Shown piece after piece: positions 42,159-47,555 of a stretch of DNA of 64,000 bases (position 1 is the stretch's first letter; each line of letters opens with the position of its first letter). Source of the DNA: Serpentinimonas raichei (GTDB lineage: Bacteria; Pseudomonadota; Gammaproteobacteria; Burkholderiales; Burkholderiaceae_C); contig NZ_AP014568.1 in the NCBI RefSeq assembly GCF_000828895.1, positions 875,858 through 939,857 of the forward strand, in the 5' to 3' direction. Below the pieces are notes generated by a model. The model searched no databases, was not told the origin of the DNA, and saw only the letters and a list, made by a program, of their open reading frames with translations. The position numbers were made by a program, and so were the translations under genes.

Positions 42159-42889
42159 GTGGCTCGCATTCTATTCGATGTGGCGCAATGGGAGGTCAGC
42201 GCGGGTACGCCAGCAGGCAGGCTCATTCGGTCAACAACTCTGCCACCAGCTTGCGCACGATGGATAACCCAGGCACCTCGGTTCGCTGGGCCAGGGTCAC
42301 AAAACCGAAACGCGCCGTGGCCTTGAGCGGCGGGTGGGTGTCTAGCTGCACCAGGCCGCGCCCGGCGGCATTGATGGTTAGCACCACCGCGTCGCTTTGG
42401 CGTGCCACTTCCACCAGGGTGGGCGTGTCGTCGCAGCGCAGCGTGACCATGTCGTCGGGGTTGGCGGCGGCACCGTAGCGTTCGGTGAGGATGCGCGCCA
42501 CCTCGTCGCTCAAGGGGGTGGATGCGATTGGGTAGGCCAGCACATCGTTGAACGGCAGCGGGCCGGATCGGCTGCACAGGGGGTGACCCGGGCGGCACAT
42601 GAAACTGGCCGCCATTTCTACTTGGTGGCTGATGCACAGGTCGATGGCGGGCCGCAGCGCGCGTATGTCCACCACGGCGGCGTCCAACCGGCGCTCGCGC
42701 AGGGCGTGGATGAGCAGAGCGGTGTTGCCACGCGACACCTCCAAATGCAGCTGCGGGTGGTGCCGCGACATGTGCAGGAGCAGGGGCACCGACAACACAG
42801 CCCCCGGCCCCGAACTCAGCCCTAACTCTCATGAATCCTGCGCGACACCCCGGACGATGGAAGACACTGAGGGGGTGTGCGGGCGAGCT

Positions 42890-43070
42890 TGGGTAGAGGT
42901 CGGTCAAACCTTTGATGGCACATTGACCGCGATTCCTAACTTGACCCGCCGCCGACCACTCGTACCCTGGATTGCCTGCGGGCGCTGCCCTGACCCAGTC
43001 GGATCAGTGCATGCCTGACAGCCCACATTAAATGGAGCCGCCGGGCTTGCCCGGCAGGCCGTTGGTCTGC
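42890..43070 (+). ncRNA. Candidate bridge RNA of the IS110 element
   Basis: Non-coding segment between the left end and the recombinase. A stem GGTCGG (42898-42903) / CCGACC (42952-42957) encloses CCTAACTT (42935-42942), identical to eight bases spanning the reconstructed LysR target (CCTAACT^T). Downstream, GCCTG (43013-43017) / CAGGC (43055-43059) encloses CCACATTAA (43023-43031), identical to the right end of the element (44440-44448), next to a perfect 7-bp hairpin (43040-43055). These are what left-target and left-donor guides of an IS110 bridge RNA should match. The right-hand guides were not identified. Boundaries are approximate. Confidence 0.6.
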
Positions 43071-43129
43071 GGCACCCATGCTTGCCCTGCACGCTTGTGA
43101 TTATCGTTCAAGCTGCTAGGAGAGATGCA

Positions 43130-44362
43130 ATGGATTTGACCCCGATGCACAAGCGCGTGCTCGCGCTCGATGTTCACCAAGCCAAGATCACCGCGTGTGC
43201 CGTCGTCGAGCACGATGACGGCCGCGTGCAGGTGACCAAGCGCGACTTTGGTGCCTTCAAGCGTGATCGGCGCGCCTTGGCGCAGTGGGCGCTGCAAATC
43301 GCACCCGAGGTAGTGGTCATGGAGAGCACGGGCGTGTACTGGAAGAGCCCGTTTGCGGCACTGGAGGCGGTGGGCATCATCGCTTGGGTGGTCAACGCAA
43401 GGCACGTCAAGGCCGTGCCCGGTCGCAAGACCGACATGGCCGATGCGCAGTGGCTGGCCACGCTGGCGCGTGCGGGGCTGCTGCGCGCCTCGTTCATCCC
43501 TCCCCAGCTCATGCGCCAACTGCGCTTGGTTGCACGCCAGCGGCAAAAGCTGGTGGGCATGTGCAGCGCCGAGAAGAACCGGCTGCACAAGGTGCTGGTG
43601 GATGCGGGCATTCGCCTCAACGTGCTGGTCTCCGACATCCACGGCAGCAGTGCGCGTGCGATGATCAAGGCGCTGATTGTCGGCCAGCCCATGCACGAGG
43701 TGCTCGATCACAAGGGGCGGCTGCGTGCCAGCCGAGACGAGTTGTTCGAGGCCCTATGCACCGAGCAGTTCAGCGCCGCGCACCGCTTCGTAGCCGATGA
43801 GATCATGCAGCACATCGAGTCTCTGGAGCGGCGCATAGCGGGCTTTGATCGGTACTTGCTCGAAGGTCTGCGGCCCTGGCGGGCGCAACTGACGCTGCTG
43901 CAAACCATTCCCGGCATCGACGAGCAGGGCGCGGCCATGCTGCTGGTAGAGATTGGCGCAGACATGAGCGTCTTTGGCAGCGCTGAGCGCCTGGCTAGCT
44001 GGGTCGGCATTTGCCCGGGCAACAACGAGAGCGCGGGCAAGCGCAAGTGCGGGCGCATCCGCAAGGGCAACGCTTGGGTGCGAAGGCTGTTGTGCGAGTT
44101 TTCCCAAGCTGCGGCTCGAACGCGCTGTGCGCTCAAGGCCAAGTTCGATGCGCTGACTATCCGCAAGGGGCGCAAGAAGTCCATCATCGCGCTGGCGCAC
44201 AAGATGCTGCGCACCATCTACGCCATGCTCACCCATGGCACCCACTACCGGGACAAGGAGGTTGATTATGAGGCGCTCAACGTCGAGCGCAACGCCCCAC
44301 GCTGGATGAAGATGCTGCTCAAACACGGCTTCATCACCAATCCCGCAGCCGCAGCCGCCTGA
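43130..44362 (+). CDS. IS110-family transposase (DEDD recombinase)
   Basis: 410 residues. The RuvC-like N-domain has the catalytic tetrad in LALDVHQAKITA (Asp14), VVMESTGVYWK (Glu65) and RKTDMADAQWLA (Asp102, Asp105). The C-terminal Transposase_20 domain carries TIPGIDEQGAAMLLVEIGAD and SWVGICPGNNESAGKRKCGR with the expected catalytic Ser (Ser301). Both catalytic parts are intact, so the protein should be active with its guide RNA. ATG 43130 has AGGAGA six bases upstream; an earlier TTG at 43082 would read through the ribosome site. Confidence 0.95.
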   Translation: MDLTPMHKRVLALDVHQAKITACAVVEHDDGRVQVTKRDFGAFKRDRRALAQWALQIAPEVVVMESTGVYWKSPFAALEAVGIIAWVVNARHVKAVPGRKTDMADAQWLATLARAGLLRASFIPPQLMRQLRLVARQRQKLVGMCSAEKNRLHKVLVDAGIRLNVLVSDIHGSSARAMIKALIVGQPMHEVLDHKGRLRASRDELFEALCTEQFSAAHRFVADEIMQHIESLERRIAGFDRYLLEGLRPWRAQLTLLQTIPGIDEQGAAMLLVEIGADMSVFGSAERLASWVGICPGNNESAGKRKCGRIRKGNAWVRRLLCEFSQAAARTRCALKAKFDALTIRKGRKKSIIALAHKMLRTIYAMLTHGTHYRDKEVDYEALNVERNAPRWMKMLLKHGFITNPAAAAA

Positions 44363-44871
44363 GGCTGACCTACCCGCTGATCTCGCGGCCCCGGCCAGCC
44401 TGAGGTCAGGATGAGTCTCGGCTGCTGGTGGGGTGTCTTCCACATTAAGTTCATGTGGCCCGTGACGCCGGCCTGCATGCGTTTGCCCAGGGTTTTCAGG
44501 GCCTCGGCCTCCTGCGTCAGGATTTTGGCCCGTGGCAGCAGCTCCAGCCCCATCGCTGTCAATTCGATGCGCCGGCCCACCCGGTCAAACAGCGCTTGCG
44601 CCAGCTCGGCTTCCAGCGCCTGAATGCTGCGCGATAGGGCTGGTTGGGTCAAAAACAACGCTTTCGACGCCCGGGCGAACGAGCCCAGTTCTGCCAGAGC
44701 AATAAAGTGCCGGAGTTGAACCAAGGTCATGGCAGTTTCATGAGTTGAAGTTATTGAATAGCATACAACAATGCATTGGACTTTGTGTATCGGGGCATCT
44801 AATATGCACTTAAATGCATGCATCCAGATGGATCGCGTGCACTAAACATCACAAATTGCAGGAGCGCTTTT

Positions 44872-47120: not shown

Positions 47121-47362
47121 GCTCGTTTTGCCTTCTGCCGCTTTCCATGGCCCTGTCTATCAGCTCCTTGGACGCCGCACGGGTCCGTCACAAGCGAGGC
47201 GGTGTCATGCCGGCGGGAGGTCATGCAGGCCCGCCTAGAGCGGGGGATGCCGACCTGCTTCGATGGACCGCCGCACATAAATGCCAGATGCTTGGCTGGC
47301 TGGAAAACAAACCGCCTGACTGGGCTTGAGAAAGTGAGCCAAAAGCGCTAACATCAGCCGAT

Positions 47363-47555
47363 ACACGCGTCGGGAGAGACTCGGTTGATTGCAGCCGGGC
47401 GCCGAAGGTGCAACCGCCCCGGAAACTCTCAGGCAAAAGGACCGGCGTGTGTGAGGTATTTTTCTGAAAAGTGGCCGTCTTAGTCAGTCGGCCCACCGCA
47501 GGAGCAAGTGGTCTGTATCGGGCCATGAATCTCTCAGGTTCCAAACAGAGGGGCG
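47363..47555 (+). ncRNA. Tandem glycine riboswitch
   Basis: Aptamer 1 (about 47363-47451) has the conserved cores CGGGAGAGACTC, GCGCCGAAGGTGCAA and GGAAACTCTCAGGCAAAAGG, closed by ACACGC/GCGTGT. Aptamer 2 (about 47457-47555) is more diverged, with CCGCAGGAGCAAG and TGAATCTCTCAGG, ending CAGAGGGG. The double arrangement is typical. It ends about 55 nt before the DadA-like start; glycine binding usually turns expression on, here for amino-acid oxidation. Confidence 0.9.

Follow-up and report, generated by a model that had tools for sequence, protein, structure and literature searches.

The window, by which we mean the whole stretch of 64,000 nucleotides that was analysed, contains an IS110-family element that is present in six copies in the genome (2.57 Mb, one contig). 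The copies are identical over 42822-44448 (1627 bp) and have different flanks, and it is these six identical copies that made the proposal of a bridge RNA in the left end of the element, put forward in a preliminary description of this DNA, testable. At this locus the element splits a LysR-type regulator gene on the minus strand, with halves at about 42223-42822 and 44449-44823. An Rfam scan of the window at gathering thresholds returned a glycine riboswitch aptamer (47361-47454, 69.3 bits) and two tRNAs only, with no match to a bridge-RNA family.

The element encodes a recombinase with a DEDD RuvC-like domain (PF01548, 96.1 bits, cut-off 29) and a Tnp domain (PF02371, 79.2 bits, cut-off 21.3), which also matches the NCBIfam model NF033542, ‘IS110 family RNA-guided transposase’, with 290.5 bits (cut-off 140). 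It matched two solved sequences, ISCro4 (E 1.9e-12) and IS621 (E 3.1e-11). Residues D14, E65, D102 and D105 and the serine S301 are invariant in a comparison with five relatives (37-67% identity), S301 being, from its place, the presumptive catalytic serine. With both domains and a conserved serine, the protein belongs to the IS110-family RNA-guided recombinases. Among 7999 candidates scored, 3599 proteins are related to it at E <= 1e-100; a search of plasmids at E <= 1e-80 gave one Comamonas record with a relative, and none was found among viral contigs. Only 86 nt follow the stop codon of the recombinase gene, and the guides sit in the left end. The features are as follows, with the left target (LT), left donor (LD) and right donor (RD) numbered from the core, helices named P2, P4 and P6, and A3 and A4 denoting alignments of relatives.

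42819-42822, plus strand: LT -4 to -1, host-derived, with the C at 42822 common to six sites (copy comparison; empty site of another copy)
42823-44448, plus strand: IS110-family element, including the core TAA at either end (copy comparison)
42823-42825, plus strand: left core TAA (TAA at the left and right ends of six copies)
42826-42827, plus strand: first two donor bases, RD +1 and +2, CT, repeated in the target guide
42845-42878, plus strand: putative 5' stem-loop ACACCCC/GGGGTGT, its loop holding the left subterminal inverted repeat (sequence; seen by eye in relatives)
42858-42867, plus strand: left subterminal inverted repeat TGGAAGACAC (sequence)
42898-42946, plus strand: predicted target-binding hairpin, closed by P2 (42898-42903 with 42941-42946; cells paired 90.5% in A3, 94.3% in A4)
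42933-42941, plus strand: predicted target guide, TTCC (LT -4 to -1), TAA (core) and CT (RD +1, +2), from covariation; in this clade only CCTAA is seen to act on target choice
42948-43073, plus strand: predicted donor-binding region, a multiloop closed by P4 (42948-42958 with 43063-43073; 96.8% paired, both bases varying in 7 of its 11 pairs)
43025-43031, plus strand: predicted donor guide, ACAT (LD -4 to -1) and TAA (core), from exact agreement of the LD trinucleotide across elements
43037-43059, plus strand: hairpin P6, 3' of the donor guide (97.5% paired, both bases varying in 3 of its 9 pairs)
43130-44362, plus strand: recombinase gene, 410 aa (PF01548, PF02371, NF033542, alignments)
44433-44442, plus strand: right subterminal inverted repeat GTGTCTTCCA (sequence; perfect over 10 bp with 42858-42867)
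44442-44448, plus strand: right end, LD ACAT and core TAA, the donor site that 43025-43031 would read (copy comparison, right-end matching)

Ends, core and insertion sites of the element

Across the six copies the right end is the same up to TTAA and is then followed by different bases, and the left end is the same from CTAACTCTCATG onward. The six insertion sites, with left and right flanks separated by a slash, are GCCCTAA/GTTC, CCCCTAA/GCTC, CATCTAA/GTTG, CCCCTAA/CGCA, GGCCTAA/CGGG and TGACTAA/AAGG; CTAA is the sole sequence common to all six, and CCTAA occurs in four. This comparison gives CCCTAA followed by GTTCATGTGG as the pre-insertion site at the present locus. The preliminary description had written it as CCCTAACTTCATGTGG, one base of which is wrong because part of that sequence is the element's own end, its CT coming from the element.

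Joining the flanks at one TAA restores an uninterrupted reading frame for the LysR-type regulator. Empty sites were sought for copies L001, L004 and L005, and for L004 an orthologous empty site in a same-genus genome aligned without gaps (GGGATAACCCCTA[A/G]CGCAAGG). The restored frame and the gapless empty site together make CTAA part of the target. For L005 two same-genus orthologues aligned with gaps at the site and were uninformative, and for L001 no same-genus match was found at the DNA level. The empty site of L004 (L128) has TAG where the target has TAA.

The left end of the element reads TAA-CTCTCATG and the right end CCACAT-TAA, and the presence of TAA at both ends makes it a shared core. 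Among relatives, the two ends disagree in their first core base in six elements (L141, L151, L161, L175, L186 and L201), so that the true core may consist of its second and third bases (c2-c3) only. The second base is A in every element scored for the left junction (30) and for the right end (40).

Covariation of two left-end segments with the junctions

Two segments of the non-coding left end, at 42933-42941 (guide 1) and 43025-43031 (guide 2), match the left junction and the right end, respectively. The single copy was assessed with 5000 dinucleotide-preserving shuffles. The preliminary description had correctly placed CCTAACTT at 42935-42942; its position for CCACATTAA, 43023-43031, is right as well, as is the identity of this segment to the right end at 44440-44448. 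It had also held that both matches are unlikely to arise by chance, which is true of the right end, where a match of 9 was reached in 7 of 5000 shuffles, and not of the true target, whose best match of 6 is ordinary (1846/5000); the match of 8 to the target as then written was reached in 82/5000. The match of 7 to the left junction was reached in 453/5000, and the left and right matches jointly in 0/5000. In a single copy the donor match alone is impressive, and the target match is convincing only via relatives.

These relatives comprised 71 loci from named genomes and loci from further genomes. We scanned the RNA columns of an alignment of 27 left ends (A1) against the end and flank columns in both senses. 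The top score joined LD -1 to 43028 (100% identity), and the other expected diagonals scored as well (LD -2 with 43027, 100%; RD +1 with 42940, 100%; RD +2 with 42941, 95%; LT -2 with 42935, 66%). Many off-diagonal scores, mostly of RD +2 and RD +9, contained no run, and we ascribe them to shared ancestry. Across 25 families, the same-sense signals reached z values of 10.7 and 10.6.

In 30 selected elements, guide 1 agreed with the left junction in 4/29 at -5, 21/29 at -4, 23/30 at -3, 27/30 at -2 and 28/30 at -1, and in 30/30 at each of the three core bases, counts that are inflated from -4 through the core because single-copy left junctions were placed partly by the match itself. Beyond the core it agreed in 29/30 at +1, 27/30 at +2 and 4/30 at +3. 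The elements were chosen: L144, L187 and L212, in which no guide was clear by eye, and the partial or ambiguous junctions of L177, L178/L179, L181 and L190 were left out. Matching is limited to nine positions from -4 to +2 (four target, three core and two donor bases) and is at background outside them. Both +1 and +2 were matched in 26 of the 30 elements, by dinucleotides of eight kinds (GC, CT, CG, GT, GA, TG, AC and TT), GC accounting for 10 of these 26, in elements related by descent; the exceptions are L066, L210 and L211, with a mismatch at +2, and L164, with one at +1. In a test restricted to the nine multi-copy families, which is free of the inflation, the longest left match was 8.1, versus 5.6 with the RNAs of other families (0/20,000 permutations).

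The same restricted test gave 7.8 versus 4.9 for the right end (0/20,000 permutations). Here the set comprised 40 elements, that is 42 minus L066 and L070, for which no right end was found, with the right ends of L178, L179 and L190 included. Guide 2 agreed with the right end in 8/40 at -6, 30/40 at -5 (where the end base is always C), 39/40 at -4, 40/40 at -3, and 39/40 at both -2 and -1; its core bases agreed in 39/40, 40/40 and 38/40, and the right flank in 13/40 at +1 and 7/39 at +2. The LD trinucleotide was exact in 38 of the 40 elements, with 14 kinds represented (permuted mean 5.1, maximum 14). The donor-guide cores of L040 and L070 are altered. A right donor guide was found neither in the A1 scan, nor in an unanchored search of 25 families, nor in a 26-family test; one may nevertheless be present, as the contiguous method used did not detect the discontiguous one of IS621.

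Guide 1 also tracks host bases. In 49 TAA-core insertions the base at -1 is always C, and the base at -2 equals the guide base in 33, versus 13.8 expected with guides shuffled (0/5000 permutations), while guide positions -3 (16/48) and -4 (7/48) showed no significant specificity in this clade. In Aromatoleum anaerobium the guide reads GCTAA and so do eight of eight sites. Distant relatives (about 37-40% protein identity) have unrelated guides, each matching its own junctions: most Ktedonobacter robiniae sites read TTTGCCC-GAA and the guide GCCC-GAA-GC, and the five sites in genome G282 are all GTAT-CAG, with GTAT-CAG-TT as the guide. Among the exceptions within the scored sets, L089, which is degraded, has CCAA. 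The possibility that the guide is templated by each new target was ruled out, since the six copies have different targets and identical RNAs.

Two further observations concern the surroundings of relatives. Each of five copies of the G282 relative (L142, L150, L155, L158 and L160) lies directly after a repeat that by eye resembles an integron attC-type site, which fits repeat targeting. In Candidatus Accumulibacter phosphatis (L023:2745-5896) two related elements adjoin, and both their target and their donor guides are different.

The target guide proposed in the preliminary description is supported by covariation, but it acts in this clade on about five bases and not eight. Of the eight bases assigned to the target, only CCTAA (42935-42939) can be target; CT (42940-42941), with which the guide ends, corresponds to the first two post-core bases of the element and thus agrees with the donor, and the last T lies in a stem. 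That description had named, as an observation that would speak against a guide, the same segment being kept at different targets. Taken literally this is the case, with six identical RNAs at six sites; yet all six share CTAA, and in relatives the variable guide base tracks the target, which argues for a guide of limited length and not against a guide.

Structure of the left end and the right side of the target

Over P2, P4 and P6, 95.5% of cells are paired in A3 (14 relatives) and 11 of 26 pairs have changed on both sides, with 0/500 shuffles as high. In A4 (10 relatives; L029, misaligned at its 3' end, was kept) 93.6% of cells are paired, and the set is weak as regards pairs changed on both sides (3/25), 28/500 shuffles being as high. 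The clearest example is P4, where GACCA/TGGTC in one group corresponds to ATTCA/TGAAT in another. RNAalifold applied to all 27 rows gave almost no structure, whereas clade-wise folding gave consistent helices, which were afterwards counted on the separate alignments A3 and A4; we think that the former failed because the donor arms are misaligned between clades. The covarying helices indicate that the long left non-coding end probably encodes a structured RNA. The GGTCGG/CCGACC stem proposed earlier did not survive this comparison: 75.0% of its cells are paired in the 14 relatives, versus 75.4% in shuffles, and it is not conserved. The partner of GGTCGG is instead TTGACC (42941-42946), and CCGACC is part of another helix, formed with 43063-43073.

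A segment of the left end at 42846-42854 (CACCCCGGA) resembles one in the donor multiloop at 42963-42975 (TACCCTGGATTGC), and by eye each is well conserved in relatives. In a search for a promoter at the circle junction, no sigma70-like site stood out (430/500 shuffles as good).

In the unanchored search of 25 families, complementary matches to the left and right target and to the left and right donor did not rise above permutation. This search was too blunt and missed a right-target guide, which was revealed when only the part of the target loop on its 5' side was searched. Across 11 families of ktedonobacterial relatives, with 23 insertions, this guide matched at 6.16 of 8 positions, versus 4.56 permuted (0/1000). 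Individual matches are 8/8 in L151, L161 and L213 and 7/8 in L175, starting 28-30 nt (34 in L151) before the core of guide 1, and 6/8 in L176, L191, L204 and L205, all of them at nearly one place in the RNA. Within the same set, matches are weak for Kte (4.5), L174, L186 and L201 (5 each) and L140 (5.25). For 17 TAA-core families (38 insertions) the value was 4.44 of 8 versus 4.49 permuted (606/1000 as high), and for the four CAG/TAG families taken by themselves 322/1000 permutations were as high. The idea that the whole subfamily has no right-target guide was therefore ruled out by the positional test of the ktedonobacterial sets, and stands only for the TAA-core clade and, on four families, the CAG/TAG group. 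In the same way, the earlier failure to find right-side guides holds for the window's clade and not for its relatives, which carry a right-target guide. As this guide lies on the 5' side in those relatives, the suspicion that the loop layout might differ from that of IS621 proved well founded.

In the sets of the window's clade, Ktedonobacter robiniae and G282, right-flank conservation does not rise above background even at the first base, while the left flank is conserved beside the core. The first right-flank bases of our own six copies are G, G, G, C, C and A. In this comparison one of the 7 Acc copies is without a right end, and the Ktedonobacter right flanks of L049 and L069 are identical, so that these copies are not all independent. 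Some ktedonobacterial copies (L204, L205 and L173; L202 and L203) have right-flank bases in common (GTGA and GAATCAGGG), partly as longer flanks; those common to L204/L205 and L202/L203 may come from insertion into repeats.

A predicted bridge RNA and its place among IS110 elements

By covariation, the left end is predicted to be a bridge RNA with the target guide before the donor guide, as the preliminary description had proposed, and the covarying helices support this as well. We consider it highly probable that the segment at about 42845-43080 serves the element's own DEDD/serine recombinase, with an IS1111-like order, one-sided reading of the target in this clade and a handshake-like dinucleotide. 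In such an RNA, the 9-nt guide (42933-42941) would sit in the loop of the target-binding hairpin, towards its 3' side, and the 7-nt guide (43025-43031) in the donor multiloop. The donor guide would hold the right end of the excised circle (ACAT-TAA) and the target guide the left side of the genomic site (N-C-TAA in this clade). Strands would be exchanged at the shared core, after which the last two guide bases would pair with the element's incoming first two bases, as the handshake guides do in IS621. Ktedonobacterial relatives would, in addition, use the 5' side of the loop to read the target's right side, on the top strand. The undetectable right-target guide of the window's clade would result in insertion at short, common CTAA sites. 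For transcription, pairing in the complex, the exchange step and the order of strand cleavage, this is what we infer.

The target loop of IS621, according to the literature consulted, pairs by its 5' side with the bottom strand and by its 3' side with the top strand (PMC11208160, PMC11208158). The guide on the 3' side is bound to target positions 10-14 and, once the top strands have been exchanged, to the incoming core (8-9) and to donor positions 6-7, by means of two handshake bases (PMC11208158). The element resembles IS621 and ISCro4, as described there, in its left-end RNA, the target loop before the donor loop, left-target and left-donor guides, a DEDD and serine recombinase and the idea of a 2-nt handshake (PMC11208160, PMC11208158). 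Indeed, the left target guide covaries with the target and the left donor guide with the element's right end, as in IS621-type elements. It differs from the IS621 of these accounts in the core, which there is CT with a near-invariant T and here is TAA in the window's clade and GAA, CAA, AAA, GAG, CAG or TAG in relatives; in its recombinase, of 410 versus 328 aa; in the reading of the target, on both sides in IS621 and over about five bases on one side in the window's clade; and in having a donor region that forms a multiloop and subterminal inverted repeats of 10 bp (PMC11208160, PMC11208158). Furthermore, the bottom-strand guide is 5' and the top-strand guide 3' in the IS621 so described, and this order is reversed in the relatives of the window element (PMC11208160, PMC11208158). 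Our contiguous method detected the left guides and the right target guide with handshake bases in the controls, IS621 and an ISCro4-like element; in the window's clade no IS621-type right target guide was found, and in ktedonobacterial relatives it lies 5' instead of 3'. TAA would fit a CT core only on the other strand. With neither a right target guide nor a CT core found when tested, the element is not of the standard IS621 type.

A donor-binding multiloop is reported, in the consulted part of PMC11208160, for many IS1111 elements and not for IS621, and IS1111 seekRNAs are described with the top-strand complement 5' and the bottom-strand match 3' (PMC11187229). The element shares with IS1111, as presented in these sources, long subterminal inverted repeats (7-17 bp there, 10 bp and perfect here) and donor bases in a multiloop (PMC11187229, PMC11208160). 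The IS1111 order given there, top-strand complement 5' of bottom-strand match, occurs in the ktedonobacterial relatives, and no 5' top-strand guide is seen in the window's clade (PMC11187229). IS1111 elements are described as usually having their RNA in the right end and recombinases of 330-350 aa, whereas here the RNA is in the left end and the recombinase has 410 aa (PMC11187229); on account of its left-end RNA it is not an IS1111 element. The seekRNA of ISEc21, also of the IS110 family, lies upstream as here, and in the account given it is recombinase-bound and reprogrammable, binding being predicted in our case; unlike the window element, ISEc21 is described with the IS621 guide order, a longer specific target and a need for target bases on both sides (PMC11187229). 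In the literature ‘IS110 family’ was not found together with ‘CTAA’, and, among the papers listed, titles and abstract openings described no such RNA. An earlier description is possible: PMC11208160 gives predicted guides for six diverse elements in its figures and supplements, and four of the six drawn there, sought by name, were found in the literature in that paper only.

We think that, in comparison with IS621, the element belongs to a branch of mirrored site polarity, and that in the window's clade a working right-target guide has been lost. The mirroring is suggested by the guide order, by c2=A, which reads as T9 of IS621 on the other strand, and by a c3 that is less conserved, like C8. 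On balance we favour, with some reservation, an IS110 branch whose recombinases have about 400 aa, extending from Burkholderiales to Ktedonobacteria, that would have a left-end bridge RNA with a mirrored IS1111-type order. Its 3' guide would comprise five target, two core and two donor bases, fitting over its full length only the recombined left junction and not the empty target, and the TAA-core clade would have lost or silenced the other target guide, making insertion one-sided and semi-promiscuous. Alternatively, the guides could be direct homologues of the IS621 left guides, with the same side and polarity, a new core and no mirroring. Both guides are in the same sense as LT and LD, like the IS621 left guides, and a counter-point to mirroring is that the IS621 left guide, too, is followed by two bases, TG, equal to its own first two donor bases. 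We nevertheless regard this homology as improbable: the relatives' right-target guide lies 5' of the left-target guide, the reverse of IS621; if the core is c2-c3, the windows of 5+2+2 and 5+2 bases have the layout of IS621 right guides plus handshake bases; and the invariant c2=A corresponds to T9, nearly invariant in IS621, only if the other strand is read.

A right-target guide might have stayed in use in the window's clade and gone unseen because it is too short or tolerates too many mismatches, but this appears rather unlikely. Relatives have such a guide, single TAA-clade insertions reach 6/8 (L010, L023), our own copy L003 has a 7-nt complement, at another position, and Aromatoleum right flanks start with A in 5 of 8. 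Against this stand the 17 TAA-clade families, which do not exceed permutation, and right flanks that vary among copies with one RNA (six of our own, eight Aro, six Acc with a right end and four G598). By far the least probable reading is a structured leader that regulates the transposase, the end matches reflecting DNA constraints such as recombinase binding sites. The RNA does lie directly upstream of the gene, and the support for a guide role is computational; the matches, however, track 14 right-end trinucleotides and eight left dinucleotides element by element, plus the host base at -2, and a protein site would not copy host bases.

We believe that, if the mirrored, one-sided bridge RNA is real, a clade that reads its target by a single short guide, with two donor bases in that guide, would reveal which parts of bridge RNAs are dispensable and would offer a natural test of the handshake step proposed from the IS621 structures. 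Bridge recombinases are under development for large DNA edits. The simple rule of 9-nt and 7-nt windows can serve for guide annotation in many relatives, the 3599 proteins at E <= 1e-100. Such a branch would, furthermore, link the IS110 and IS1111 groups and would account for the spread of an RNA-guided element to many sites.
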